The notes under the pieces were generated by a model. The model searched no databases. It was not told where the DNA came from and saw only the letters and a list, made by a program, of their open reading frames with translations. From Halorubrum vacuolatum (GTDB lineage: Archaea > Halobacteriota > Halobacteria > Halobacteriales > Haloferacaceae), in assembly GCF_900188065.1 (NCBI RefSeq), contig NZ_FZNQ01000006.1, positions 62,001 to 126,000 on the forward strand: a DNA stretch of 64,000 nucleotides, written 5' to 3'. The translations under genes and the position numbers were made by a program. Within the stretch, counting starts at the first letter, position 1, and each line of letters opens with the position of its first letter. This document shows, piece by piece, positions 1 through 45,905 of this stretch.

Positions 1-2
1 AG

Positions 3-71
3 CGCGCTATCACCCGCGTACGTGAGATGTACCGGGACTACCGAGAGGGATCAATCGGTGATAGCTTATGA
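3..71 (+). CDS. C-terminal tail of a gene entering from the left (partial)
   Basis: A short open frame runs from the window edge to a TGA at 69-71 and encodes a charged tail (RVREMYRDYREGSIGDSL). The composition looks like a real helical C-terminus, but 22 codons cannot be assigned to a family. It lies upstream of, and on the same strand as, the gene at 160, so it may belong to the same operon. Confidence 0.3.
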   Translation, partial: RAITRVREMYRDYREGSIGDSL

Positions 72-10952: not shown

Positions 10953-12119
10953 ATGGCTATGAGCCAACCCCAGCAGACTACGACACGAGCCGCAGGAGAT
11001 ACAGCTAATCAACCAACAGCTGAGCCAGTGGATATTGATGATCCAGACGACTATCGATACCAGTGCCCGCTATGTGAGGCGGTCTATGATAGCGAGATTG
11101 CTGCTCGCGTCCACATTACTCGTTCGGACGATGATACTCATCAAAATCAAAATGGGCTCATGCCAGAGAGCTACATTGAGATTATCGCAGACGACGATGA
11201 GGTAATTGGCACGGTGTCACGACAACCCGATGAGATCGCAGTCGGCAGCTTCTCGCTTGATCAGGTCCCTGATGAGTACCCCGAACATCACAAGCACATA
11301 ATCAAGATCGCTACTCAGCATCCATACAAAAATTATGCTGAGATCGAAGATCTGGTCATCAAAGAATTTGATGAGAAAGGCATTGATGTACCGTCATACT
11401 CCACGATCCGCCGCGTGGTGCGTGACTTCTACCATCCACGCGAGCTCAGTGAACAAGTTGAATCACTCGAAGCTCTAACAGCCAAGCAGCAGGCTATCAT
11501 TATCGCCCGCACGTTGTTGCCGTCCGAGCCAAAAGCGAAAATCTCTGACAGAGTAGGCTGTGCATCGTCGTATCCCGCGCAAGTTTACGAACGTGCACCC
11601 GGTATAATTAGATCCATCGAAGAGTCAGGTGATGTTTCTGAGCGGATAAAGTCGGAGCTGTCTGTCGAGAGCAAAAGGGAACTGACGACTGCCGGACTCG
11701 TTGACGAACTCCCGATTGAATTCGACGTGGCGGTCGAGGAAGTAGCAGATACAGACACCGAGGAAGCTAATGATAATGGTCAGCAGAGTCTGTGGGGATC
11801 GCCTGTCGATAATCCCACGGGTCTGCGAGGAGTTCCAACGCCAGAGTCTGTTATTGATACTGATGACGATGATGCTCACGAAGACGCGCAGACGAAAGTA
11901 CCAGCCGCACCACAGGCTGATGATTCAAAACCAGAGTTAGACAGTCTCGCAGAGGCAGATGTTCTTCGAGCTGATGTTGCTGATTTATATCAGGACATCA
12001 GCTTCTTATCAGATGTTTATCAGCACGTAGGAGGAAACAACGACCCCGATTTCACTCAGGCGGTTATTACAGCGGTCGCAGATCGGTGTGAGTCAATCCT
12101 ACAGCGAGGTGAGGCGTGA
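10953..12119 (+). CDS. C2H2-type zinc-finger / HTH DNA-binding protein
   Basis: A 388-residue protein. Near residues 35-65 it has CPLCEAVYDSEIAARVHITRS followed by D..H, a single C2H2-like zinc finger. Residues 110-150 (NYAEIEDLVIKEFDEKGIDV and PSYSTIRRVVRDFY) form a helix-turn-helix, and a second helical DNA-binding-like unit follows (AKISDRVGCASSYPAQVYERA). The C-terminal 130 residues are acidic and low-complexity and end in a short helical domain. Such zinc-finger/HTH proteins occur on haloarchaeal plasmids and integrative elements. It is the first gene of an operon whose second ORF begins in a TGATG overlap. Confidence 0.65.
   Translation: MAMSQPQQTTTRAAGDTANQPTAEPVDIDDPDDYRYQCPLCEAVYDSEIAARVHITRSDDDTHQNQNGLMPESYIEIIADDDEVIGTVSRQPDEIAVGSFSLDQVPDEYPEHHKHIIKIATQHPYKNYAEIEDLVIKEFDEKGIDVPSYSTIRRVVRDFYHPRELSEQVESLEALTAKQQAIIIARTLLPSEPKAKISDRVGCASSYPAQVYERAPGIIRSIEESGDVSERIKSELSVESKRELTTAGLVDELPIEFDVAVEEVADTDTEEANDNGQQSLWGSPVDNPTGLRGVPTPESVIDTDDDDAHEDAQTKVPAAPQADDSKPELDSLAEADVLRADVADLYQDISFLSDVYQHVGGNNDPDFTQAVITAVADRCESILQRGEA
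12106..12112 (+). promoter_or_regulatory. Shine-Dalgarno deciding the start at 12119
   Basis: GAGGTGA lies 6 nt before ATG 12119, favouring this ATG over the GTG at 12116. The SD plus TGATG overlap is the same arrangement as at 892-908. Confidence 0.6.
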
Positions 12120-12745
12120 TGTACGTTGCTCGCGACATACATCGTGACATTGCGATTTCAGGTGATGAGGTTATGAAACACACAGATAGTGGTAGCGATC
12201 AATTTCGTTGCCTGTTCTGTGATGAGCCGCTTACGTTCGACCCATGTAGTACCGGTCGTTTTGATTCTTTCCACCACCAGAATCACTCGGAACCGTGCGT
12301 AGCCGAGGGAAACATCTCAACGGCCCATCGAGTTGCACAGGAGATGGTGGCAAAGAAGGTGTATAATTTGTTCCCACACGGCTCGAAGATAGCTAGGGTT
12401 GACCTCGAAAGACGTGTCGGTAACAAGTCTGATTTTGTGATAACCGATCTGCTGTCCGACCCTGCAAGAGTAGCAATAGAGGTGATATACAAAAACACAG
12501 ATCTTGGCCTGCAGCGTCGGTTACGGACGCTCTTTGACGAGGGCTATGCAGTAATGCTAGTAGTGGTAACAACTTCCGATCTCCATCCTGACCGGTTAGA
12601 ACGATATCTCAAACGAGTCGGACCAATCCAAGTTGGACAGTTCGATCCGAGCACGATGGCAACGCGTCTTGGATCACTCGTGCGACCGGGCACGATAGAT
12701 ATTGATGCACAGGTTTGGGACGTGCTACCGCAGTATCTTTCATAG
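12119..12745 (+). CDS. CoiA-like putative nuclease with zinc-binding N-terminus
   Basis: A 208-residue protein resembling competence protein CoiA-like nucleases. An N-terminal zinc knuckle (FRCLFCDEPLTF with a later FHH and H) is followed by HRVAQEMVAKKVYN. The nuclease-like core has SDFVITDLL, then ARVAIEVIYKN, which provides the D...E-x-K pattern of the restriction-endonuclease fold. The last third is alpha/beta (YAVMLVVVTTSDLHPDRLERYL). Translationally coupled to the zinc-finger/HTH gene, so the two probably act together in DNA processing of a mobile element. Family activity is inferred, not shown. Confidence 0.65.
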   Translation: MYVARDIHRDIAISGDEVMKHTDSGSDQFRCLFCDEPLTFDPCSTGRFDSFHHQNHSEPCVAEGNISTAHRVAQEMVAKKVYNLFPHGSKIARVDLERRVGNKSDFVITDLLSDPARVAIEVIYKNTDLGLQRRLRTLFDEGYAVMLVVVTTSDLHPDRLERYLKRVGPIQVGQFDPSTMATRLGSLVRPGTIDIDAQVWDVLPQYLS

Positions 12746-13057: not shown

Positions 13058-15169
13058 TCACCGCGTTGCCCGCCGACCGAATACGAACACGAGGATGGCG
13101 AGTAGGACGACACCTATTGAAGTTTCAAACACGGCGAGAACCTGACCCCACTGGTTGACTGGAGCGAAGTCGCCGTAGCCCAGCGTCGTGAACGTCAGCC
13201 CGCTGAAATAGAGACTCTCAAACAGTGTCGCCTCATACCCAGAGTTTGCGTGCTCAACAAGGCCGAACGCATAATAAACGAGGCCAAAGGCCAGAACGGT
13301 GACCGCGCCAGTCCCCAGCACGCGGGCGGGACTCTCACCGTACCGCGCAACGAGGGTCGGTACAAACGAGCGGACGGTCATCATCGTCTCGCCGTCGCGC
13401 CAGTACTTCCTTAATTGCACATCTTTGCGCCCGAGGAAGCACTCGCTTGCCAGCCCCGGCAGGCTGTTGTTGCGGGCGAGATTTTCCAGCGTACCGTACA
13501 CCTCGCCGGCTTTCTCCAGACTAACCGATCCGTCGCTCCCACGGTAGCGCGGGTCATAGGAGCAGTAGGGCTCCTGATCGCGGAAGGCCATTTTGACGCG
13601 CCGGAGTACACGCACCGGGACCGGAGAGCCATCGGGGTCGCGGCGGTTGTCGTCCCCGTCCAGCCAGAAGTCTGTCTCGCGGTTGATGCGGGCGTCGCCC
13701 AGCAGCGCGCCGTAGAGTTTCGCCCCAGCGAGATTCGCCCAGAGGAGTTCCGCGCGATTGAGGCGTGCACGCTCAAACGACGCGCCAGCGAGTTCCGCGC
13801 GGCTGAAGTTCGCACCGGTGAGGTTCGTGCCGTCAAATGAGGCCGTCGAGATGTTCTCAGTGCCCGTTACGTCGGCATGCTCGAAGTCCGCGCCTTCGAG
13901 TGTGGCGTCGGTGAACTTGGCGTCCGACGGGAAGCGGGTGTTGCTGAAGTCGATTCCATCTTGGAAAGTCACGTCGCTAAAATCCACATCACCCGCGAAC
14001 ACGAAGTCGAACTGTTGCTCTTCTTGGTCGGATTGTTCGATCCGAGTGGTCGAGTCGACCCCACCGCGAAACTCCAACGCACGGCGGAACGTCGCACCTG
14101 AAAAGTCCAGCGAGTGTTCATATACGTTCTTATCGGCATTGCCAGCAGGCACCGCCCCAATACCGAATCCAAACGCAACGTCGTCCCGGAAGTTTACGTC
14201 GGTGAGAACTACACTGGACGCGACATCGAACCGCGTGTTCAGAAACGAGAGGGGAGCGGCGACCGTCGCACCTTCGAACGAAATCCTACCCTCTCCGAAT
14301 GCCGCAGTATCGAACAACACCATACCTTCCCCGAAAGTCGCACTATCGAACAACACCCTACCTTCCCCGAACTCCGAACCCACGAACGACACCACGCCCT
14401 CCCCGAACTCCGCATTATTGAACGTAATCCTACCCCCGCCGAATTCCGCACTATTGAACGACACCCTACCTTCCCCGAACGCCGCCCTGCTGAACACCAC
14501 ATTACTTCCCCCGAACGTCGCATCAGAGAACGACACCTTGCCCCTCCCGAACTCCGCACCCCAGAAGGACACCTCGCCCTCCCCGAACTCCGAATCCGCG
14601 AACGACACCGTACCTTCTCCGAACTCCGCACCCCAGAACGACACTGTACCCTCTCTGAACTCCGCATGACGAAATGAAATCCACCCGAGCTCAGCGATCA
14701 CTTCCTCTTCGCCAGTTTCGAACCGCGCCTGCCTTGCGAGCACGTCGTGTTCGAAAACGGCGTTTTCGGCGTTCAGTCCGTGCGCGAATGTCGCGTGGTC
14801 GAGTCGAATAGGATGTTCGTCACCAGCATCTAGCGTCTCATTCTCGATGTCAAACGCTCCGAACGTCGCGCCGACGAACTCTTTATGACGGCGCGCCGCC
14901 TCCTCGTTGTCGACAGCACTCACTTCGTTGACAACCTCGACGAACCGTTCGCCCTCGTCCACGTCGTCGGGCATGTCCTCGGGGCTGGTGTGGAACGCGC
15001 AGTACTCCTCACCGTCGAGTGACTCGTGTGGACACTCCCAGACCTCCTGTTCCAGCCCCCGCCTATGCTGATGGTTGTCCAGCAACCAGTCGTCGGGATC
15101 GTCACCGTGCCAGTTCGACGGATCTTCTTTCCGTGCAACATAGTCGCACGTTCCCTCTGGGTCGGCCAT
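13058..15169 (-). CDS. Pentapeptide-repeat protein fused to a two-TM ion channel
   Basis: A 703-residue protein. Residues 1-60 hold a small Cys/His patch (CDYVARK, WECPHESLDGEEYCAFH). Residues about 90-510 are pentapeptide repeats, including a block of near-identical 14-residue units (AEFGEGTVSFWG-type) predicted to form a right-handed beta helix. The C-terminal 110 residues have two membrane helices around a pore loop with filter TTLGYGD, the Ion_trans_2 potassium-channel signature. Likely a membrane channel gated by, or tethered to, the beta-helix domain. The start at 15169 has a TATA box 28 nt upstream (leaderless). It is the sole gene of IS-ended cassette 2. G+C and codon use are richer than its A+T-rich neighbours, suggesting separate origin. 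Confidence 0.8.
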   Translation of the reverse strand: MADPEGTCDYVARKEDPSNWHGDDPDDWLLDNHQHRRGLEQEVWECPHESLDGEEYCAFHTSPEDMPDDVDEGERFVEVVNEVSAVDNEEAARRHKEFVGATFGAFDIENETLDAGDEHPIRLDHATFAHGLNAENAVFEHDVLARQARFETGEEEVIAELGWISFRHAEFREGTVSFWGAEFGEGTVSFADSEFGEGEVSFWGAEFGRGKVSFSDATFGGSNVVFSRAAFGEGRVSFNSAEFGGGRITFNNAEFGEGVVSFVGSEFGEGRVLFDSATFGEGMVLFDTAAFGEGRISFEGATVAAPLSFLNTRFDVASSVVLTDVNFRDDVAFGFGIGAVPAGNADKNVYEHSLDFSGATFRRALEFRGGVDSTTRIEQSDQEEQQFDFVFAGDVDFSDVTFQDGIDFSNTRFPSDAKFTDATLEGADFEHADVTGTENISTASFDGTNLTGANFSRAELAGASFERARLNRAELLWANLAGAKLYGALLGDARINRETDFWLDGDDNRRDPDGSPVPVRVLRRVKMAFRDQEPYCSYDPRYRGSDGSVSLEKAGEVYGTLENLARNNSLPGLASECFLGRKDVQLRKYWRDGETMMTVRSFVPTLVARYGESPARVLGTGAVTVLAFGLVYYAFGLVEHANSGYEATLFESLYFSGLTFTTLGYGDFAPVNQWGQVLAVFETSIGVVLLAILVFVFGRRATR
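14281..14680. repeat. 42-bp imperfect tandem repeats (14-residue units)
   Basis: About nine to ten units of roughly 42 bp, each carrying CTTCCCCGAA-like sequence, encode alternating (S/A)EFGEG-VSF units of the pentapeptide domain. Similarity at the DNA level is high enough for unequal recombination. Confidence 0.75.
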
Positions 15170-15492: not shown

Positions 15493-17013
15493 TTAAATAA
15501 CGTCTTTAAAGTCGCCAATTTTTTCCAGCATCTTCATCATATCGAGTTCACTTTTGTTTGGCCACCGCCGCTCACCAAACTCACAATCACTATTAGTGCA
15601 CATATATGAGCGCTGTGTATATCCCTCAAGATAGTATCGTCCGTTACTTATCAACATCTCATCACAGGAAGGACATTGCAACCGTATCAACGGACTAGCC
15701 GATTCAATGATATATGGTGAAAATTGATCGACATATTCCTTTTCTGTCTCTGATCTGGATCTCTTGGCGCTGTACTTTTCATTTATCTGAGCAACCACTT
15801 CTTGTACCTCATCGAACTTATCAGCTGATATCATAGCTAGCTGCTTGTCTTCATGATGTGGGTTTTCGGGATGATGCTGAAGATAATCAATTCGTAGTGT
15901 CGGTGAGCCCTTGTATACAGGGTTAGTCACGATTGACTTAATATCCTTTCCAGTTAGTTTGTCATCTACCAGTTGTGGAGTAAATTTAACCCTCGTTTTC
16001 GTATCAGTACTATTTTTTGCATCTTCATTACCTTCGTTGTCATCCGGACTCGCCACAACATATTTATTTGAATCTACAAAATCCTCAAGATTAGATATCT
16101 CCTGAAGCTCTTTTTTGAATATCTTATTAATTTCACGTGCTGTAGCTTCGTATCCACGCTTCTGTTTGAATACCTTAAAGATTTTTTTGATGATAGGTTT
16201 CCACTCATCTATCGGCTCAATCCATTCACCCATCGGTTTATACCCGAGAGGGATATGATGGCGAAACCATGCTCTCCATACTCTTTTCTCCAAAAATCCA
16301 TCAGCGGCAGATCTAACTGCAGACCTCGTGCGGGTCATCGTGCTAAATTCGGCCATCGTCGCTTGCATGATGGCCTGTAGTCGATCTTCCGGAACTTTCA
16401 GATCTAGTTCTTTGTTTCGACACAACAACTTTACATCGTAATCATTCCGAAGTTGGGTGATGAACATCAGCGTCTCAGGAACGGTTCTGCCGATTCGATC
16501 TATGGTGTCTACCAATAGATGGGTTACATCGTCACGCTGAGCAAGCCGACCAACTTTTTGTATGCCGTCTCGGTTGAAATCGGTCCCAGATCTACCTTCA
16601 TCTGTAATATCCTCTATGAGCCTTGCGTCTGCTCGGTTGTTAAGAACTGCTGTGAGTTCTTCTTTCTGTGAATCGAGAGATCGACCGTTCTCTTTTTGTT
16701 CATCTGTACTTACACGACGATACATTAGAATTCCTTCTCCACCCTGTTTTTGTGAATCAGTTACAGGTGGAGAATCCGAGAATTCGTACAGATTCGTCTG
16801 TGAAGACTGGGACAGGAGAGTAATGACTGCGACGAGAGGAAGGAAGATACTCGTTCGCCTATGTAAGCTCTGGCCAAGATTACTTATATAACGCCTGATA
16901 CGGAAAGCCAAGGCTTGTCGTATCCGACCTTTTATAAGTATATTGGGCCAACCGGGGTGCTCTGCGGCCGTCGCAAAACGGGCTCGTAAATCGTCTAACC
17001 AGCCCGCGATCAT
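15493..17013 (-). CDS. Large serine recombinase with a fused N-terminal membrane-like module
   Basis: A 506-residue site-specific recombinase. Residues about 97-250 form the catalytic resolvase domain, with MYRRVSTDEQ carrying the nucleophilic serine and DEGRSGTDFNR and DTIDRIGRT following. A recombinase domain (GYEATAREINKIFKK, region near residue 240) and a C-terminal zinc ribbon (CPSCDEML ... CTNSDCEFG, about 445-480) follow, the architecture of large serine integrases/transposases. The first 95 residues are unusual: a basic helix (GRIRQALAFRIRRYI) and a hydrophobic segment (IFLPLVAVITLLS). The ATG overlaps the stop of the upstream tyrosine recombinase by 4 nt (ATGA), so the two are translationally coupled. 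It likely cuts and joins DNA of the resident element. Confidence 0.85.
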   Translation of the reverse strand: MIAGWLDDLRARFATAAEHPGWPNILIKGRIRQALAFRIRRYISNLGQSLHRRTSIFLPLVAVITLLSQSSQTNLYEFSDSPPVTDSQKQGGEGILMYRRVSTDEQKENGRSLDSQKEELTAVLNNRADARLIEDITDEGRSGTDFNRDGIQKVGRLAQRDDVTHLLVDTIDRIGRTVPETLMFITQLRNDYDVKLLCRNKELDLKVPEDRLQAIMQATMAEFSTMTRTRSAVRSAADGFLEKRVWRAWFRHHIPLGYKPMGEWIEPIDEWKPIIKKIFKVFKQKRGYEATAREINKIFKKELQEISNLEDFVDSNKYVVASPDDNEGNEDAKNSTDTKTRVKFTPQLVDDKLTGKDIKSIVTNPVYKGSPTLRIDYLQHHPENPHHEDKQLAMISADKFDEVQEVVAQINEKYSAKRSRSETEKEYVDQFSPYIIESASPLIRLQCPSCDEMLISNGRYYLEGYTQRSYMCTNSDCEFGERRWPNKSELDMMKMLEKIGDFKDVI

Positions 17014-18140
17014 AGATAACCACCTCCACTCTCATCAGCAACACGGTCCAAAATTCGCCGGCGAGCACGGCACCGCTCTTCTTCTGTCGTTTCATCGTAG
17101 TGCTTGCGTATGGTATCTTCGCTAACATCGCAGCGTTCGCTCAGTACATCGAGTGGTATACCACGCCGGCGGCCCTCAGTAATGAATCCATGTTTGAGTG
17201 CGTGGGGTGAGCGGCTCGATGGGCATTTCGAGGCGTGGTCCATCGACTGTGCAGCCGAGCAAGAATCAGGATCACGATCATGCGGACAACCAGCACCGAT
17301 CACGCACGGTCGGCTCCACTGGTAGATGTACCGACGGATGGTAGATTTTGAGACCCGACCATGCCTCGTCGCTAAAAGAGGCTCTCGGTCACAGTCATCT
17401 GTTACGTCCGGTCGGGTCGTCTCGATATAATCAGTGACAACCTCAGCGTCACCCTTCGAGATAGCTACGTGACCTGCGCTCTTGGTCCCGTTTTTCAGTC
17501 TCGTGCCTTGATCTGGCCGATGGTGAAACTCAAGATATGGCTCATCAGTATCTAAGTGAGCGTCATCTACATCTAAGGCGACTAGGCACCCGGTGCGCCG
17601 CCCTGTACGCACGCCGAGCACCCATACTACGTGTGCGAGCGTGGCATACTCATATTTCTCCAGATAGCTGAGGGTGAGCCGAACTCGCTCAGGATCCAGA
17701 TCCACGTCTCGTACGCCATCACCTGCTGAGAGCTCCGGGACTGGTACCGAGTCGCTCAGTCCGGGTTTGACGGCCTCAATATCTTCGAGATAGGAGAGCC
17801 AGCTTCGAAGCCGATACATCTCATCACGCATCGTCTTGTTTGATAGCTCACTGACTCGCTCGCACGATTCGTACCGCCGCCACGTGGCGATGTCGTTGAT
17901 CAAGCGACCGTCAAGGTCTCGCAAATCGTCGATCTCCTCTTGTTCCAAAAAGTCCAAGATTCGACCTAATTTGGATGCGTAAGTTTCGAGGGTCTTCTCC
18001 GTCAGCTCTGGACGTCTCGCGTCTAAATAACGCTCAAGACCCTGCTTAGGCGTACAGGGCTTGAGATTCGGTCCCAGCTTAGAGCGGAGTAACTCAAAAA
18101 TCTCGTCTTCATCCAGATCACCAATTGAGGCTCCGCTCAT
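17010..18140 (-). CDS. Tyrosine recombinase/integrase with an altered HxxR motif
   Basis: A 376-residue phage-type integrase. The N-terminal SAM-like core-binding domain (RYLDARRPELTEKTLETYASKL) is followed by the catalytic domain with RTGRRTG (first Arg) and HHRPDQGTRLKNG. The C-terminal box reads SPHALKHG, so the usual HxxR is HxxK, and the nucleophile is in IRKHYDETT. A Cys/His patch (CVIGAGCPHDRDPDSC) interrupts the domain as in other haloarchaeal XerC/D-like proteins. The ATG at 18140 is chosen over an upstream ATG at 18317, because the family N-terminus begins near MSGASIGDLDEDE and the added 59 residues look untranslated. Activity is uncertain because of the Arg-to-Lys change. Divergent from the operon at 18383. 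Confidence 0.85.
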   Translation of the reverse strand: MSGASIGDLDEDEIFELLRSKLGPNLKPCTPKQGLERYLDARRPELTEKTLETYASKLGRILDFLEQEEIDDLRDLDGRLINDIATWRRYESCERVSELSNKTMRDEMYRLRSWLSYLEDIEAVKPGLSDSVPVPELSAGDGVRDVDLDPERVRLTLSYLEKYEYATLAHVVWVLGVRTGRRTGCLVALDVDDAHLDTDEPYLEFHHRPDQGTRLKNGTKSAGHVAISKGDAEVVTDYIETTRPDVTDDCDREPLLATRHGRVSKSTIRRYIYQWSRPCVIGAGCPHDRDPDSCSAAQSMDHASKCPSSRSPHALKHGFITEGRRRGIPLDVLSERCDVSEDTIRKHYDETTEEERCRARRRILDRVADESGGGYL

Positions 18141-18350: not shown

Positions 18351-18382
18351 GAGAGCCTGAAACTGTGATTTTAGACAGAACT

Positions 18383-19579
18383 ATGGATGCCACAGATCGA
18401 CTGGATTGCCGTCAGTACAACCTTTCCGCATTACAGTTGGCACATCTTCTTGATGGCGACATTGGGGATCGTAACCCAAAAAATCTAGAAAAAGAGATAC
18501 AAGATACAGCGATACAGCTCGATAAACGTCTGCAGTATCTAATTGAAGATATTTGCATCCTCTATGAACAAGGCTATTTGAATAAAGAAAATTGGCCGGT
18601 AGGTTGGGATCAGCTTAGCGATCTTAACCGTAATGACAATCTCTACGATCCTCCACTCGGGATAGTTGGGGCTTCTCAGGAAACTATGGATTACATGTCT
18701 ATGGCAATGCATTTGGGCCATGTCTGTCGACTCCTCTACTCCGCAACGGCACCACAGTTCGATTCAGAAATGGCCGCGCTTGGGTTTTTGATCGGGCTAA
18801 GAGGTGGATGGCTGAGTGAGGATTGGAGGGCTGAGTCATCTCAGAAATTATTGAAAGTGCTTCCTGAGGAGGGCCTGAAAGCAGACATCTTCGAGATGCC
18901 ATCATCAGATACAAGCAAGGGCCTTGCTGACGTTCTCCGTCAGGTTGATGATAGTTTTACCAAGGAAGATATCGTGCAGGACGAGGATATCGAGCTACGG
19001 AACCGTTTAGAGGAATCTAATCTCACTCTTACTCCAACAGTATTTGAGTATGCAGAGGAAATGCTCGTAACAGCAGATTTCCCTGCCACATCACCCGTAA
19101 TAGAGGGTGTAGTAGACCAAACAACGGCTAATCACGAGTTAAAAAAAGCAGAAAGGCTAGCTGACCAGTTAATACAGGATATCGACTCCCTCGTACATCA
19201 TAATTATAGGGGTGGCGAAGCGATCCAAGTCTTCTGGGCCATCCACACCACCGAGTCCGTTGAGGATAATGACGATATCGTAGGTTCTGTTGACACAAAA
19301 AAGCACCAAGTTAGTAAGCTAATGACTGATTTGTGTGGCCGCGAGTCACCATGGGACCTACGCCCAGTAATTGTGGACGGGCAATTTGGAATAAAGAAGA
19401 CTAATTATGGAAAGCTGATCGCCCAGTTGCTGACCGCAGAAAGTGACGACAAAAAATATGCTGTTCCACCTGATAATGAGATATATGATGCTTGTCATGC
19501 AGCCATTCTTGGTGAATCCGACGATGTACGTCAAGAGTTGATGAATGAGGTACTCTCGGAGGTAGAAATAGATACCTAA
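18383..19579 (+). CDS. Unknown protein in operon with an RpoB'' paralogue
   Basis: A 398-residue protein that I do not recognise. It is mainly helical and acidic: an N-terminal segment SALQLAHLLDGDIGDR, a 'hydrophobic with Gly' block near residues 135-150 (AALGFLIGLRGGWLS), and a C-terminal alpha/beta part (RPVIVDGQFGIKKTNYGKL, then YDACHAAILGE). No membrane segment or catalytic signature is obvious. It is the first gene of an operon and its stop lies 26 nt before the RpoB''-like ORF, so a partner role with that subunit is a reasonable inference. Composition is A+T-rich, like the neighbouring accessory DNA. Confidence 0.65.
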   Translation: MDATDRLDCRQYNLSALQLAHLLDGDIGDRNPKNLEKEIQDTAIQLDKRLQYLIEDICILYEQGYLNKENWPVGWDQLSDLNRNDNLYDPPLGIVGASQETMDYMSMAMHLGHVCRLLYSATAPQFDSEMAALGFLIGLRGGWLSEDWRAESSQKLLKVLPEEGLKADIFEMPSSDTSKGLADVLRQVDDSFTKEDIVQDEDIELRNRLEESNLTLTPTVFEYAEEMLVTADFPATSPVIEGVVDQTTANHELKKAERLADQLIQDIDSLVHHNYRGGEAIQVFWAIHTTESVEDNDDIVGSVDTKKHQVSKLMTDLCGRESPWDLRPVIVDGQFGIKKTNYGKLIAQLLTAESDDKKYAVPPDNEIYDACHAAILGESDDVRQELMNEVLSEVEIDT

Positions 19580-19605: not shown

Positions 19606-21168
19606 ATGCATCGTGAAAAACGTCAGAGGCTCGCTCAGGCATATCTCAGTCGGCAAAACGTTGCCGCACACCATCTCCATTCATTCAATCGGTTTTTAGA
19701 GGCTGGTCTACAGACGGTTGTAAAGCAGAAGGGGCCGATTCATACGAGTATAGGAAATCAAGATACTGACGCTACCTCTGGCAACGAATCACATGAAGAG
19801 CCTCTCGTAGCTAAGATAACTGAAATTCGGGTGGAGTCACCTCAATTCCGAGAGAGCGACGGAAAGGTAACTACACTATATCCTCAGGAAGCTAGGCATC
19901 GGAATCTTACCTATGCTGCACCGATGTTTCTAACCATTCAATTAATCATAGGTGGTAATCAAGAACCAAAATCTATTTTCAAACGGCAGGAGGTAAAAGT
20001 CGGGAAGTTACCGATTATGGTCCGTTCTCATAGTTGCAACCTAGCCGGCTTATCCCCATCGGAGCGTATAAATAAGAACGAGGATCCGCTTGACCCCGGT
20101 GGGTACTTTATTGTGAACGGTAATGAGCGCGTTTTGATTAGTACGGAGGACCTTGCCTCCAACCGAATTCTGACCGCCTTTGCTCAGCGATCCGGAACTA
20201 AGATTCCAGAAGCAACGACGTATTCGCGCCGACGGGGATATAGGAATATCACCCGGGTTGTTTACGACAAGAACGACCAGCTGGCCGTGTCCTTTCCGGG
20301 TGTTTCCGGGATGGTCTCATTCACTACAGCTGTCTGTGCGTTGGGTATGGAGACAGATGACGATATTTACCAGCACTTTTCTGACGATGAGAAAATCATT
20401 CGAATATTGTTTAGCTCTCTTGAAACCCGACAAGCGAGAGATAGAGATGCTGCTTTGGTGAAAATAGGCTCAAACCTCGCACCGAAGCAGTCTGCAGAGC
20501 AACAGAGGGAGAAAGCTCTCGAAGTCTTTGACCAACGGCTTCTCCCACACCTCACGGAATCCAGAGATCAACAAGCAAGAGTCCGATATTCCAAGGCCAT
20601 TCACCTCTGTCGGATGGCCGAGGCCTGCCTCAATTTATATCTTGGCCGAAAAGAGCCCGAGGACAAAGATCACTACAAAAACCAGAGGCTACGAGTAGCA
20701 GGCGACTTGATGAGGGAACAATTCCGTGCGGTTCTAAACCGATTTGGTCGAGATCTAAAATATCAAATTGAGCGAACTTACAAACGGAACCGGAAACTGT
20801 CGATACCGAATCTGATCCAATCTGATCTGATCGGGAACCGTCTGGAAGCTGCCCTTGCGACAGGGAACTGGGTAGGCGGCCGATCCGGTGTCTCGCAGTT
20901 TGTTGATCGGACGAATATGCCAAGTCTGCTCAGCCAACTCAGACGAGTGCAGAGCCCGCTATCACGCGGGAGGCCGCACTTTGATGCACGTGATCTGCAT
21001 GCTACGCACTGGGGTCGTATCTGTCCAAGCGAGACGCCTGAGGGACCAAATTGTGGATTAGTGAAGCATCTCGCGCAGGCAACCGACCTTTCTACTACCG
21101 GTATTGACGAGAGAATTCTGAAAGATGAGTTGGTATCGATGGGTGTTCGGCAGACGGATCCACACTAA
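19606..21168 (+). CDS. Second, divergent RNA polymerase subunit B'' (N-terminal half of beta)
   Basis: A full-length (520-residue) homologue of archaeal RNA polymerase subunit B''. It keeps the landmarks of the family in order: an N-terminal FNRFLEAGLQTVV, LYPQEARHRNLTY, PGGYFIVNGNERVLIS with EDLASN, YRNITRV in the lobe, ATGNWVGGRSGVSQ with DRTNM, LRRVQSPLSR, and DLHATHWGRICPSETPEGPNCGLVKH near the C-terminus (fork loop 2 and the rifampicin-pocket region). The core around the active centre is almost unchanged while the lobe and protrusion regions diverge. No partner RpoB', A' or A'' gene is present. The gene lies in accessory DNA beside recombinases, with A+T-rich codons, so it is an extra copy, not the housekeeping gene. 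It could replace the normal subunit in the enzyme; effect unknown. Confidence 0.9.
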   Translation: MHREKRQRLAQAYLSRQNVAAHHLHSFNRFLEAGLQTVVKQKGPIHTSIGNQDTDATSGNESHEEPLVAKITEIRVESPQFRESDGKVTTLYPQEARHRNLTYAAPMFLTIQLIIGGNQEPKSIFKRQEVKVGKLPIMVRSHSCNLAGLSPSERINKNEDPLDPGGYFIVNGNERVLISTEDLASNRILTAFAQRSGTKIPEATTYSRRRGYRNITRVVYDKNDQLAVSFPGVSGMVSFTTAVCALGMETDDDIYQHFSDDEKIIRILFSSLETRQARDRDAALVKIGSNLAPKQSAEQQREKALEVFDQRLLPHLTESRDQQARVRYSKAIHLCRMAEACLNLYLGRKEPEDKDHYKNQRLRVAGDLMREQFRAVLNRFGRDLKYQIERTYKRNRKLSIPNLIQSDLIGNRLEAALATGNWVGGRSGVSQFVDRTNMPSLLSQLRRVQSPLSRGRPHFDARDLHATHWGRICPSETPEGPNCGLVKHLAQATDLSTTGIDERILKDELVSMGVRQTDPH

Positions 21169-22363: not shown

Positions 22364-25300
22364 TTAAATGGGGAGATGGCTTTCTAAAAATTCCGTGTCC
22401 ATTTTATTGTTTTCTGCTGCAAACTGATCGGCTATGTCTAATGCTGTCTGTAGCGCCTCCTCTCCTGCATCTTCCGCACACTCGTAAAGGTAAGACCGAT
22501 GGTCTTCCTGACTTGTTCGAGCAATAGATGACCATTCACCACAGGTAACAGCATCAACTAATTCATCATATATCTTTATTGTCACAACAGGGCAGTCAGC
22601 TGCTTGCTCTGCTAACCATCCCTCAATGCGCCGCCAGTGGTGCGTGTGTTTAGCAACGAATGGGAGTGATTGAAGAATTCGGCTTTCCTCGTCTTTTAGG
22701 GTTGTTGTCGTTGCACTTCGAACACAGTCAAGGAAATACCTGATCTCTGTATCATGATCTTCTGTGTCAGGGTCAACCACATTTAACCGATACTCCCAGA
22801 GATCTCGGATTTTGCTCCACTGGTCCTCAACTTCCTCGTTACCCATTGACGATGCCAACGTTGAGGCCAGTTCTTTTACCGCCTCACGATCAGCAATATG
22901 GTAAAAGTGGTTGATCAGGCTTTCGTCATCACTGAGGTCGTCGTTTTCAAACAAGTAGATCGAAGCAACGTGAGCAGTGGTTGACCGAGCCTCAATTTGA
23001 TATGCAGCATCTTTATCGGCATCAAGCAGGCTGAGCGCGTGGAAATAGTATTCGCGGAACAATTCGCTGTCCCAGTATCGATTATACGCCGTATAGGAAT
23101 TCCATGCGGCAATAAACTGTCGTTGAGCTGGCTGGTCAGTCCCCCGTGTGAAAATATCGTCCAAGTGATCTTTAATGAACTGTGTATTAAGCCTATACAG
23201 GGTGCCAAATCGGCGACCAATCACTGACCGAACAGCAAGGGACTGGTCCTCAAGGATACGCTCCTCGATGGGGTCAAAAAACAGCTCGTCTAGCTGTGTT
23301 TCAGTTTGTTCATCTTTCCATGCAAGATAAGTGATATATGCGTTCACTGCCATCGGACGGACGGAATTAATCGCAACCGTGGCCGGATCGCCGTGGCCAG
23401 CCATTCCTTCAGCAGGCTGGTCACGCTCAGGCACGGGATCTGGGTCAGTAGACAAGGTAGACAAAACGTCTTCGATCTGTGATTCAAAACCATCCGGGAA
23501 CGCAGTCGTATCGGCTGCAATCCCTCGATTAATCAGCATCGCGAGGTTGGTTTTCGAACGCTCACTCCAAGCGGTCGGTGATGTCGTAATTGCTTGTCCG
23601 AGTGCAAGAATTGAGTCCCATGGGAAGGTCTCGCCATCATCAATAAGATCTCGAAATGCACGGAAAGCAGCTTCAGCGTACTGTGAATGAGCGTCTTCCA
23701 ACACCGAAATTTCACGCGCATATCGCTGCGGATCCTCCTTGATCAATTCACCGAGCTGACTTGAGAAACCCCTGTGACTGCGTTCCTCAAGCTGAACAGT
23801 TTCACCTGTGTTCCACCTCTCTGATTCGGGTGGTTCCCATTTGACTGCTGTCGTAAGGACTTCTTCGGCAGGCTGGTCCCGAAGTTTGTCTGTCTTTTCT
23901 GGGCCGTATTGTCGGACCACACCACCATGCATCCGTACTGGCTGCCGGCCCCGTGATGGTGGTCGGTCTGGCTCACCGTGCTTTTCGAGCAGTTCGTCAA
24001 GTTGCGCTATATACGGATCGTCTAGGTAATCGCGAATTAGATAAAACCGATCACGCTTCCACTTTTCCCGTATTCGTTGTTCGAAATAGCTTGCTGATTC
24101 TTCCTCTCGTGCGGCTAATCGTTCAGCACGATTTTCCACATCGTCGGCATACGGGCCATTTTCGATGATCCCACAAACCCGCTGCTGTGCTCTATGATCA
24201 AGGTGCTCATAGCCCTTCTCGAAAGCAAGATAAAACTCATAATGGGACTGCTGCTCGTGATACTTTTGCTCGTTCGTTACTTCGTCGCTAATTTGTGTGA
24301 CAAATGCTTCCGGAAATTCACTGAGGACGTACAAACCTATCCGCTGAAGGACCGTATGTTGATCTAACAACCATTCTACAAATTCAGTTTTCTGGTCGCT
24401 TGTAGGGTTTATATTGACCCACGCAGTCATCGCTTGGACGGAGTAATCCAGCAAAATCTCTGCAAGCGATCCTCGCTTATTTTCAACAAAGTTTAAATCA
24501 GCAAATGAGATCTGATCTGCAACAGTGCCATACTTTTCTTCCTCTTCTGTCCGCTGTTGGAGTGCTGTGATGAGATTTGTTGTAAACATTCCCAAGAGCT
24601 CCCCACCGCGTTCCTGAAGTAATTCATCAAAGTGTTCGTCAAACAGCTCCGTCAGATTGTACCGGATCATACCTTGGTCGACATCCAACTGGTTTCCTTC
24701 TCGTGGCATCAGCATCACATCAAGAATTTCAAGTGCCACATCGTACTCGTCATGCTCAATAAGATACGAAGCCAGTCGTATTGCATAACTGCCAAGGTAA
24801 CCGTACGCTTCGTCGTCCTGTACCCAAGTTAGAGCCTGTTGTCCGACGACAGCGGCATTATTTACTGGAAGATCACGACTAAGTGAAAGGAAAAATCGTT
24901 GCGTTCGAAGATTATCTGTTTCAAGCTCTTGAGCAACTTGTTGTACAAATGATGGCCGTGTCTCGGCGGTCCGGCCCAAGTAAGTTATGAGGTTATTATG
25001 TGGGTCGGTGAACTTGCCTTCTTCGAAAAGAAACTCGACCCACGAAGGATCAAGGTCTCTATCGTAGAAGTGATTCGCCATATTACAGCTTGTTTCAACG
25101 CTTGACAGTATTGCTTTCACGATGGTGTCTGGTAACTCAGCGGGATCATGTTGCTTGAATTCATCAAGAAGAATCGATGAGGGATAAAATCGGAGTCCTT
25201 CGTCGGAGATGGTTGTCTCAATCAGATCCGTGAGGAGGTCCTGCTCTTCTTCGAGAGTGCTTTCTGAAAGGTGGGATATCCAAGAGGTGACATGGTTGAT

Positions 25301-26410
25301 TTCGATTTCGAAGGTACGATGGTCATCAACGAGTTTGATGAGTTTCTCAGCATGATAAACACATGCACCAACGTGGGCAGTCTCAGTATGATCAGACCGT
25401 GCCTCCAGAAAGTCTCGAAAGACATCATGGACTTTGAAGATCTGAAGACCATCCGCATTGGTGCCCAGTGTCTGCACAACGGTACGCGTATTGAGTGAAT
25501 CAAGTATTTCGCCCACCTTGACACGATCAAATCCATGAGCACGGGAGGCTACACGCGTGCAGAGTTCTTCATTGAGTTCCTCAAGTGAAGCCGTAGCTAG
25601 GAGAAGCCGTCGCTCATCAGCCGTAAGAAATTCAAAATATCGCCGCTTGATTTCTTTTTGAATCTTCTTTTCAGGGATATCTAACAGATCATCATCACTG
25701 TTCGCTTCTGTCTGCAATCCGAGATACAGGGGGTGACCGCCTAATTGGTCATGAACTGCATGTGCGTCCTCGGTCGTAACGTCTGTGGCATTTTGGAGAA
25801 AAGTGATCGTCTGTTCCTCGGTAAACATAGATAGCGAAACCGTCGCATCTATTTCATCTAAGGCAAGCCGACCGGCAGTGATAAGAATAACATTGGACGG
25901 CAGTTCCTCAGCCGCTTCCTGAATCGCACCCTGCACCTTCCGCTTGTCCTCGCTCAATTCATGGACATCATCTACACAGACAATCAATGATTGATCCTCA
26001 GGAAACAAATCACTCAAACCTAACAAAGAATCTTTGTAACCAAACTGTGCACGAGACGCTTCCGCCTCGTGTGATTCAAATGAGACACCCCCGCCACCGA
26101 TTGGTGTACTTACACTCAAACCAGCAAACTTCCGCCCCTCTTCCTTCTTTCCCTCAGGCAACGCATTAAAAAGTGCACGGCAGAGTTTCCGAAAAAGCTC
26201 ATCTAAATTATGATTCGCCTGAATATTCCGCCGATCTACCCGAATCTCACCATCCAACTCCTCCTCAATATGGTCAAGCACTGTTGTCTTCCCCACACCC
26301 GGTTCACCGACGATATGAACCACTTCCTTATTATGCTCAATGTATTGAGCGATGATCTCCTCCTCAGGCCGAGATATTGCATCTGACGAGGAAACACCGT
26401 TTTCTGTCAT
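22364..26410 (-). CDS. STAND-type NTPase with long helical-repeat C-terminus
   Basis: A protein of about 1,350 residues. Residues 15-330 are a P-loop STAND/AAA_16-like module: Walker A GEPGVGKTT (near residue 35), Walker B LIVCVDDVHE (near 145), a sensor strand VILITAGR and a winged-helix end (VHDVFRDFLEAR). The remaining 1,000 residues are alpha-helical solenoid without an obvious effector domain. Such proteins bind ATP and oligomerise on sensing a ligand; many bacterial relatives (Avs-type) are antiviral. That role is inferred here from architecture and the mobile setting. The ATG at 26410 is preferred over the GTG at 26425, because a CACATAAAC TATA-like box would place transcription start near 26425. 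It is monocistronic. Confidence 0.8.
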   Translation of the reverse strand: MTENGVSSSDAISRPEEEIIAQYIEHNKEVVHIVGEPGVGKTTVLDHIEEELDGEIRVDRRNIQANHNLDELFRKLCRALFNALPEGKKEEGRKFAGLSVSTPIGGGGVSFESHEAEASRAQFGYKDSLLGLSDLFPEDQSLIVCVDDVHELSEDKRKVQGAIQEAAEELPSNVILITAGRLALDEIDATVSLSMFTEEQTITFLQNATDVTTEDAHAVHDQLGGHPLYLGLQTEANSDDDLLDIPEKKIQKEIKRRYFEFLTADERRLLLATASLEELNEELCTRVASRAHGFDRVKVGEILDSLNTRTVVQTLGTNADGLQIFKVHDVFRDFLEARSDHTETAHVGACVYHAEKLIKLVDDHRTFEIEINHVTSWISHLSESTLEEEQDLLTDLIETTISDEGLRFYPSSILLDEFKQHDPAELPDTIVKAILSSVETSCNMANHFYDRDLDPSWVEFLFEEGKFTDPHNNLITYLGRTAETRPSFVQQVAQELETDNLRTQRFFLSLSRDLPVNNAAVVGQQALTWVQDDEAYGYLGSYAIRLASYLIEHDEYDVALEILDVMLMPREGNQLDVDQGMIRYNLTELFDEHFDELLQERGGELLGMFTTNLITALQQRTEEEEKYGTVADQISFADLNFVENKRGSLAEILLDYSVQAMTAWVNINPTSDQKTEFVEWLLDQHTVLQRIGLYVLSEFPEAFVTQISDEVTNEQKYHEQQSHYEFYLAFEKGYEHLDHRAQQRVCGIIENGPYADDVENRAERLAAREEESASYFEQRIREKWKRDRFYLIRDYLDDPYIAQLDELLEKHGEPDRPPSRGRQPVRMHGGVVRQYGPEKTDKLRDQPAEEVLTTAVKWEPPESERWNTGETVQLEERSHRGFSSQLGELIKEDPQRYAREISVLEDAHSQYAEAAFRAFRDLIDDGETFPWDSILALGQAITTSPTAWSERSKTNLAMLINRGIAADTTAFPDGFESQIEDVLSTLSTDPDPVPERDQPAEGMAGHGDPATVAINSVRPMAVNAYITYLAWKDEQTETQLDELFFDPIEERILEDQSLAVRSVIGRRFGTLYRLNTQFIKDHLDDIFTRGTDQPAQRQFIAAWNSYTAYNRYWDSELFREYYFHALSLLDADKDAAYQIEARSTTAHVASIYLFENDDLSDDESLINHFYHIADREAVKELASTLASSMGNEEVEDQWSKIRDLWEYRLNVVDPDTEDHDTEIRYFLDCVRSATTTTLKDEESRILQSLPFVAKHTHHWRRIEGWLAEQAADCPVVTIKIYDELVDAVTCGEWSSIARTSQEDHRSYLYECAEDAGEEALQTALDIADQFAAENNKMDTEFLESHLPI

Positions 26411-26469
26411 TGCACGACGATTCACAAGTAGACTTTTTCAATGTTTATGTGAAGCACATCCGTGTTAGA

Positions 26470-32883: not shown

Positions 32884-33894
32884 TCAGAGGTCGTCTAAGT
32901 AGTCTCGCCGTTGCTCCATTTTCTCTTCCTCTGTCCGCGAATCGTAGTGCACTGAGAGCACTTTTTCGCTCACGTTGGCGCGATCACCGACTGCCTTCAT
33001 CGGCCATCCGTTCTGCAGTGCGTGTGTGATGCCGCCTCTCCGCACTGCGTGAGGACTTACAGCTGATGGACATGCAGACGCTGAGTCATACGAGGTCGCA
33101 TCACATTCGTCCAGATCTCGTCCGTGCGGACATTCTCGTGAGACCTCACAGGGTCGAGTGTATCGATAACAGTCGCCGCGTAGCGTCGTCGTATGAGCTC
33201 GTCCTTCTGGAGTCGAAATCAACGGCTTCCGTCCGTGCTCATCCGTCACGGCTGGACGAGTATGTTCTAACCAGTCGTCCAGAAGCTCACACACCTCATC
33301 AGATAGGGCAACCAATCGTTCCCCTCGTTTTTGATTCTTCAGCGTCGTCTCTGACTCTGGCCGATGGACTACCTGTAACGATTGCTTGACGGAATCGTAA
33401 TCACCGCAATCAAGCCCATGAATTTCTCCGACACGCATCATGGTGTGCCACATCAGCGTAAGTGCGACGTGTGGTCGGGATGCGTACTCGTACTTGTTGA
33501 GATGAGAAAGGACCTGCTCGGCTCGATCAGTATCCAGCATATCATCGCGGACGTTGTCGTTCCCACTCAGTGTGGGTGACAACACTTTCGTGTGGAGATC
33601 GAGTTCGACGGCATCAATTGACTCCAACCATTTAACGAACACCCGTAGTGTGTCCATCTGCGTCTTTTCACTCGCTGGCGAGAGACCACCTTCCATGCGT
33701 CGCCACATTCTGAATTCATGTAATTGGCGACCGGACAGCTCGTTCAGATTCGTGATCTCGGCATCGTTACACCACCGGACGAAGTGTCCAAGCCGCGACC
33801 GATGCGAATAGATCGTCGCTTGCGAGACACTATTTTCTCGATCAGCGAGGTACAGTTCGAGCGCGTGTTCGGGGTCTATGGGTTCCAAACTCAT
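32884..33894 (-). CDS. Tyrosine recombinase/integrase (intact XerC/D-like)
   Basis: A 336-residue integrase with a core-binding domain (ELYLADRENSVSQATIYSHRSRL) and a catalytic domain bearing MMRVGEIHGL (Arg I), HRPESETTLKNQKRGERL, VSPHAVRRGGITHAL (HxxR) and the nucleophile in LSVHYDSRTEEE. A Cys/His patch (CEVSRECPHGRDLDEC) is present as in related haloarchaeal enzymes. All catalytic residues are retained, unlike the paralogue at 17010-18140. It likely integrates or excises part of this island. Two palindromes adjoin its start codon. Confidence 0.9.
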   Translation of the reverse strand: MSLEPIDPEHALELYLADRENSVSQATIYSHRSRLGHFVRWCNDAEITNLNELSGRQLHEFRMWRRMEGGLSPASEKTQMDTLRVFVKWLESIDAVELDLHTKVLSPTLSGNDNVRDDMLDTDRAEQVLSHLNKYEYASRPHVALTLMWHTMMRVGEIHGLDCGDYDSVKQSLQVVHRPESETTLKNQKRGERLVALSDEVCELLDDWLEHTRPAVTDEHGRKPLISTPEGRAHTTTLRGDCYRYTRPCEVSRECPHGRDLDECDATSYDSASACPSAVSPHAVRRGGITHALQNGWPMKAVGDRANVSEKVLSVHYDSRTEEEKMEQRRDYLDDL

Positions 33895-33933: not shown

Positions 33934-34270
33934 GACGGCCGATTTCAGCCGCCTCACGCCTCAGAGGTTGATCCGTTCGACAGTCGAACAAGCGCTCGTC
34001 GCGCCCGTACGCTTCTAATTGGAGTACAGCGACGAGATAGACGCGATGATAGTAAGAGGTGCACGCGTTCGTTCGACCAGTGACCGTCTACGGGTACATT
34101 GGTGGGGTTCGCGTACCTCCCAACTCGGGTGGAAAAGAGATGATCAGCCGGACACTGACGGGAGCGGTGCTCAGATCCGGTGTGAATCGTGGGACGGTAC
34201 GTTCTCGATAGAATCTACGCCCCAAAATACTCATCTCGCCTTTCAATCAATTGTCTGAACACCGACTGTG
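33934..34270. other. Intergenic stretch between integrase and surface-protein operon
   Basis: No gene or RNA was recognised here; an 80-codon plus-strand frame has no supporting features. It separates the divergent-ended integrase promoter from the 3' end of the surface protein gene. Confidence 0.4.
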
Positions 34271-45299: not shown

Positions 45300-45905
45300 C
45301 TAGATGTTGTCGAGGAAGTCCCGTCGCTGTTCCATCCTCTCGCGCTGATTACGGCGATCGTGGTGCTCGTCAAGGACACCGCGTGTGACGTTGGCACGAT
45401 CGCTGACGACATCGTTGGGAACGTCGTGGTTGAGGTGATGGGTGATGCCTCCTCGCCGAAGTGCATGCGGACTCACGCTCGAAGGACAATCAAATGGTGT
45501 TGTGTAGCTCATCCCTTCACAACTCTCCGGTTCTCGGTCGTGAGGACATTCACCCGCCACGATGCAAGGTCTGGTAACACGATAACAGTCTCCTCGGAGC
45601 GTGGTCCGATGAGCACGGCCGTTCGCCGTCGACAGCAGCGGCCGACGGCCGAACTCGTCTTCGACATCGGGACGCCGGTCAGCGATCCAGTCATCAAGCA
45701 GTCGGTAGACGGCCCCCTGAAAGGGCGACGAGCCGCTCTCCGTTCTCAGCATTCCTGATCGTCGTTCCCATCTCCGGGCGCCGGATGACGGCGATCGACT
45801 GCTCGTCGGGGTCGTAGTCGTCAACTTCGAGCGAGTGGACGGCACCGAGGTGCATCATCGTGTACCACATCAGCGACCGATTCATCAGGGACAATTCACA
45901 AATAG
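45300..45905 (-). pseudogene. Integrase remnant 2, frameshifted
   Basis: Two minus-strand frames together give the catalytic half of a haloarchaeal integrase. MWYTMMHLGAVHSLEVDDYD (Arg I position now His) comes from one frame. After a shift near 45700, RRPDVEDEFGRRPLLSTANG, SPHALRRGGITHHL and RANVTRGVLDEHHDRRN come from the other. The nucleophilic Tyr is replaced by His (EHHD compared with HYD in the intact enzyme at 32884). It is inactive. It abuts the first chromosomal gene and probably marks the island edge. Confidence 0.8.

Follow-up and report, generated by a model that had tools for sequence, protein, structure and literature searches.

Why does a stretch of haloarchaeal DNA encode a tyrosine recombinase and a large serine recombinase as a coupled pair, and where might such a pair act? 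The window, by which we mean the whole 64,000-nt stretch analysed, is C47:62001-126000 in a genome of 72 contigs. Its serine recombinase, SR (15493..17013, − strand), has the predicted 506 residues and comprises a Resolvase domain (Pfam, 6.5e-20, residues 96-225), a Recombinase domain (1.9e-5) and a Cys4 zinc-ribbon-like region, as assigned from Pfam, alignment and a structure model. The serine catalytic residues are intact, and the alignment shows that SR relatives keep YxRxS, RxGR and the four Cys. Profile and Foldseek searches group SR with the TP901-1, SPbeta, Bxb1 and phiC31 integrases (the Foldseek matches being to SPbeta and Bxb1); both its sequence and its predicted fold mark SR as a large serine recombinase.

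The SR-associated tyrosine recombinase, YR1 (17010..18140, − strand; 376 aa from its ATG), is recognised from its reading frame, from its position in a tree and from weak Pfam matches, slightly under the Pfam cut-offs, to an N-terminal SAM-like domain and to Phage_integrase. The predicted 4-nt coupling is there: YR1 and SR share the four bases of an ATGA stop/start overlap (17010..17013, − strand). So is the predicted HxxK motif, since YR1 reads SPHALKHG, with Arg I, Lys and Tyr present and the second catalytic Arg changed to Lys. We rejected HxxK as a mark of the family: other paired YR1s carry Arg at this position (HxxR, YxxR or similar), and the change is private to the window's YR1.

The original prediction had set itself against the possibility that the pair occurs only in this strain, and we reject that possibility. 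SR relatives were found in 20 of the 391 genomes of the class that were searched, and family-wide searches gave additional ones; the coupled SR-YR1 pair is present in at least 10 other haloarchaeal genomes, at least 11 with the window's own. The coupled loci are L039 (H. halodurans), L040, L042, L043 (Halobaculum litoreum), L044, L046, L054, L076 (a Haloquadratum MAG), L238 and L240 (Salinibaculum litoreum). Their junctions are mostly ATGA, TAATG or GTGA, with a longer overlap in some. Judging from these sequences, the recurrence of the pair is more than chance, and the two families are indeed encoded together as a conserved, coupled unit across haloarchaea. The arrangement does vary. In L053, SR lies directly behind a different tyrosine recombinase, and YR1 and SR stand 4-5.4 kb apart in L075 (Natrinema zhouii) and L239, with other genes between them. 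YR1 has six more matches in the window's own genome, including one fragment; none of those examined is paired with an SR. For SR relatives, plasmid records gave no match, and phages and viral contigs gave weak matches only, none of them close.

Ahead of its catalytic strand SR carries an N-terminal extension of about 92-97 residues (approximately residues 1-92, 16738..17013, − strand) with a basic stretch and a hydrophobic stretch, TSIFLPLVAVITLLS, in agreement with the roughly 95 extra residues first noticed. The hydrophobic stretch occurs in many of the extensions but not in all. The suggestion that the extension is a small integrase-associated protein fused onto SR did not hold up: it has no Pfam match, and it is predicted to be disordered, AlphaFold2 giving pLDDT < 50 at residues 1-7 and 12-88 but modelling most of the enzyme part with good confidence. 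Its most conserved feature is a DNA site.

This site is a symmetric sequence of ~54-56 bp lying in frame inside the extension (16883..16938, − strand), with the half-site ACTTATA-N7/8-GATACG-N8; its centre is at 16910/16911, where the central dinucleotide reads TT on the − strand. A symmetric site upstream of the catalytic domain is common to the SR relatives; it follows directly after YR1, in the 5' part of the SR gene, with one intact copy per island. All 19 loci have only A or T in the central dinucleotide (TT in 7, TA in 7, AA in 3 and AT in 2). Counting outward from the centre, nearly all loci show complementarity at positions 9-17, less consistently at position 11, although several bases vary: the arms of a locus match each other at 17.5 of 26 positions, vs 12.7 of 26 with arms swapped between loci (0 of 20,000 permutations). 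A length of ~54 bp with a 2-bp centre of A/T only fits the form of a large serine recombinase att site, such sites being ~40-55 bp long with a 2-bp exchange point in the middle; the attP of A118 integrase is a 50-bp imperfect palindrome of which 22 bp are needed on either side of the 2-bp crossover (PMC3556126). We consider the embedded site to be most likely SR's own crossover site, serving either multimer resolution or a second route of integration.

Two other explanations of the dyad were weighed. An RNA hairpin in place of a DNA site is unlikely, given symmetry that extends up to the centre and a central pair that is A/T only. The palindrome might otherwise be an operator or promoter element through which SR or another dimer controls transcription, with no recombination. 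Serine resolvases are known to act as repressors at their own sites, and the arms here hold TATA-like A/T-rich stretches; but symmetry down to an A/T-only centre in 19/19 loci fits a crossover site, the site lies downstream of the start codon and within a coupled operon, and L239, where YR1 is 4 kb off, has a separate TATA-like stretch upstream of the SR start. Purely regulatory use of the palindrome thus appears unlikely.

Does translation run through the site? The original prediction allowed that SR might start downstream, leaving the extension untranslated, and for the coupled loci this is unlikely. All 17 loci keep the SR frame open through the embedded site, while the other two frames hold 28 stops each; it is the only fully open frame in 16 of the 17, one alternative frame being open in one locus. 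Counted from the site centre, the catalytic Tyr codon lies at 2 modulo 3 in 17 loci, although the spacing ranges from 188 to 383 bases. With the frame open and its phase to the catalytic domain constant, the SR extension appears to be translated, on evidence that is strong though indirect. In L045 and L237, which have no coupled arrangement, the site is in another phase, so translation through the site is not obligatory.

Several loci carry variants of the site. Other arms, of the GTATGAT type, occur in L045, L052, L053 and L055, with extra direct repeats (AATCATACC-like) after the dyad; L057 has TCCCAC direct repeats in that place, and in many loci CTGTACAG-like motifs flank the site on both sides. 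These extra repeats and flanking motifs are possibly accessory sites. In L048 and L051 (Halorhabdus amylolytica), two overlapping tyrosine recombinases (297 and 375 aa) are divergent from SR, and a one-sided version of the SR site lies between them and SR. At L070 only the SR-proximal half of the site can be recognised, which would fit decay or a past exchange alike.

In its own genome the embedded site is single-copy. The genome yielded no convincing second site; nine one-mismatch matches elsewhere match no more than the searched arms. No second copy was found near any relative examined, and viral contigs and 194 genomes outside the SR loci gave isolated matches only, which, where checked, were without recombinase relatives. 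A local inversion switch is rejected, there being no convincing partner site in the genome or near relatives.

The gene pair belongs to a larger module. In most relatives an operon encoding a Cas4-like PD-(D/E)XK nuclease, a TFIIB-like protein and a second serine recombinase, SR2 (~312 aa), is convergent with SR-YR1. The 3' end of the window's SR2 (316 aa) occupies 1..71 on the + strand; the whole gene is C47:61121-62071, and the TFIIB-like gene lies directly upstream of it, outside the window (the two together at C47:60358-62071). The recurring gene order shows a conserved core of two convergent halves, one being the coupled SR and YR1, the other Cas4-like, TFIIB-like and SR2. Among the core genes searched we found Cas4-like and TFIIB matches only, the defining genes of a casposon being Cas1 and PolB, and there was no TnpA among the core genes examined, this DDE transposase and terminal inverted repeats being what defines a Tn3-type transposon. 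Distances for SR and YR1 correlate across islands (r 0.61, p 0.0006), as do those of most other core genes. In the tree, most paired YR1s fall into one clade (support 1.0); the YR1s of G424 and G257 adjoin this main clade, that of G267 is unresolved, and the tyrosine recombinases at island ends (YR2, described next) form a separate group.

A tRNA-Arg (CCG or TCG) lies beside nine of the examined islands and a tRNA-Ala beside one, in each case with the tRNA 3' end facing the island; no tRNA-Arg or tRNA-Ala was found beside the G407 locus in the longer flanks examined. For the window's island the tRNA-Arg(CCG) is outside the window (C47:45281-45353), and a 14-bp copy of its 3' end, the attR core CTCGTCGCGCCCGT, lies at 33995..34008 (+ strand), ~100 bp from YR2 (32884..33894, − strand), the tyrosine recombinase that adjoins this island end. 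The tRNA-Arg end and the far 14-bp copy place the island at C47:45354 to 96008, about 50.6 kb. Exact copies of at least 14 bp are likewise present at the far end in G205, G352, G267, G385 and G424, and in four islands (those of the window, G205, G352 and G267) the far copy is ~100 bp from the YR2 start. The far repeat was looked for and not found in G244, G235, G257 and G360; the G244 island is apparently ~9.5 kb and has little besides core genes. The attL/attR comparison between genomes that the original prediction proposed gave the tRNA-Arg end and its far copy; a clean empty site was not recovered, different DNA following the tRNA-Arg in many genomes of the genus. Past the island end, at window 45300-45894, lies a broken third tyrosine recombinase of YR2 type, which points to earlier insertions at that tRNA.

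A tRNA 3'-end repeat with an adjoining integrase gene, in the window's island and in others, bears out the idea of an integrating element. The SR-YR1 pair is probably not its integrator. Because of its position at the att end, YR2 is probably the tRNA integrase of the island. The island ends are tRNA 3'-end repeats beside YR2, not hybrids of the SR site, which is internal and whole; it follows that SR did not integrate the examined islands there, and that the embedded site, being single-copy, intact and internal, is not the island's integration point.

Might the pair then be a passenger, a dead or drifting remnant inside an island that YR2 moves? The Lys at the second catalytic Arg of the window's YR1 would suit this, as would the fact that no Cas4 was found in the window's island. 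Against it stand the open frames, the intact serine catalytic residues and the co-divergence of the core genes, and the compact G244 island holds almost only core genes. We give this explanation very little weight.

If the pair is functional, what reaction does SR carry out? Recombination between identical copies would be most compatible with a site that is single-copy, intact and in frame. An in-frame site survives exchange between identical copies but not exchange with an unlike site, and this is the main argument for resolution. Our preferred account, which we hold tentatively and at somewhat less than even confidence, is that of a conserved tRNA-island core in which YR2 is the integrase, SR acts at the embedded site to resolve multimers or tandem copies, and YR1 is its partner. 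YR2 would integrate and excise the island at the tRNA. An SR dimer would bind the embedded site, two such complexes would pair, and strands would be exchanged at the central 2 bp. When the excised circle forms multimers or tandem copies, their identical sites would thereby recombine, with the SR gene restored each time; YR1 would be produced at a constant ratio to SR and serve as its partner or as an accessory recombinase. The genome and loci searched showed neither a recombination product nor a circular form nor another copy of the site, and no product was found that would speak for the two-step or dual-specificity recombination originally suggested. SR2 instead of SR might use the embedded site.

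A close rival to resolution is that the embedded site is an attP and that SR provides a second integration route, into some attB on, for example, a plasmid or virus, with YR2 providing the tRNA route. The length, symmetry and 2-bp centre of the site match the A118 attP, and the known large serine integrases join attP to attB, sites unlike each other, two identical attP normally not being joined (PMC3556126); this habit favours an att site over resolution. The fold of SR is of the phage serine integrase type, and since attP and attB are unlike in sequence, a lone site would be expected. However, SR integration would cut the YR1-SR operon and part YR1 from SR, and none of about 26 loci shows such a split, with SR at one end and YR1 at the other. 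We also sought YR1 elsewhere in the searched genomes whose SR lacks an adjoining YR1, as SR-mediated insertion would predict, and found none; this includes L070, the sole locus here with a one-sided site. Furthermore, 9 of the 19 centres read TA or AT; being palindromic, these would not fix the orientation of integration. We judge a second integration route possible, though we would not expect it. Just as doubtful, in our estimate, is a broader proposal: that these are islands with four recombinases of two unrelated families, in which SR recombines inside its own coding sequence and each exchange restores or breaks the operon it shares with YR1. If true, this would constitute a built-in switch, with gene integrity controlling the reaction.

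The islands also carry cargo. The same island as the window's pair includes HmaABC-like defence genes (helicase, methylase and ATPase; C47:46639-57097, L258), outside the window. Within it are a 1353-aa AAA/STAND protein whose C-terminal part has a Dsr1-like match (22364-26425, − strand); an RNA polymerase subunit B''-like (RpoB'') gene (19606-21168, + strand; 520 aa), 51% identical to the other genome copy (C54); and, next to SR, a 703-aa pentapeptide-repeat protein joined to an ion-channel domain (13058-15169, − strand). Besides the RpoB''-like gene, the island has its own TFIIB-like gene. A 404-aa gene divergent from YR1 (18365..19579, + strand) is weakly matched by a homologue at the corresponding position in Natrinema zhouii, and homologues of a conserved 209-aa gene (12116..12745, + strand) come after SR2 in two relatives (L040 and L075). 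In Natrinema zhouii the DNA between YR1 and SR (L075:4755-8262) encodes what by eye is a CARF-type CRISPR accessory-like protein, and transposase-like fragments lie nearby.

Cargo separates YR1 from SR in two loci (L075 and L239) and SR2 from SR in four, the window's among them, which could mean that SR and YR1 capture cargo, new genes entering at or beside the SR site. Yet where YR1 is separated in this way, SR retains the complete site, and the cargo ends show no direct or inverted repeats beyond chance length; capture of this kind seems to us highly improbable.

A 2021 review describes archaeal serine recombinases as uninvestigated (PMC8371274). Our literature search, with most subscription journals outside its reach, found no description of this gene combination or element, and a family of tRNA-inserted islands with up to four recombinases and sometimes antiviral defence genes is apparently undescribed. 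Large serine recombinases, tRNA islands and multi-recombinase elements are already known; what is new, as far as could be searched, is the combination of these kinds together with the in-frame site. The locus offers an archaeal large serine recombinase that is defined together with its candidate site and is open to direct testing, and the island family can bring defence systems such as HmaABC into haloarchaea. If true, a site kept in frame in the gene of its own enzyme would be an unusual tie of a reaction to gene integrity.

Comparison with known systems shows where these islands stand. The large serine integrases (phiC31, Bxb1, A118 and SPbeta) share with SR a catalytic domain, a long helix, a recombinase domain and a Cys-rich C-terminal part and, adjoining the gene, a palindromic site of ~50 bp centred on 2 bp. 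Unlike in those systems, the SR site is inside a translated gene and intact in the integrated island, the island was probably inserted by another enzyme, and SR is coupled to a tyrosine recombinase. A serine resolvase with its res site (Tn3 family, TnpX-like) resembles SR in having one site per element beside the recombinase gene, with an A/T centre, and resembles some SR relatives in having extra direct repeats beside the site; here, however, enzyme and site are of the large type, the core genes include no TnpA, and resolution is a proposal. Several recombinases are encoded together, as here, in Tn554-type and recombinase-in-trio elements, which are not known to use recombinases other than those of the tyrosine family. 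Like tRNA-integrated haloarchaeal elements such as SNJ2, whose tyrosine integrases use an att of about 13 bp (PMC8371274), the window's island has YR2 adjoining a 14-bp core that matches a tRNA 3' end; the present gene core differs in adding three further recombinases and the Cas4-like and TFIIB-like genes. Finally, SSV-type suicidal integrases, like SR, have the recombination site within the recombinase gene, but the SSV enzymes are tyrosine recombinases that are split on integration (PMC8371274), whereas the SR gene is unsplit in the loci examined.
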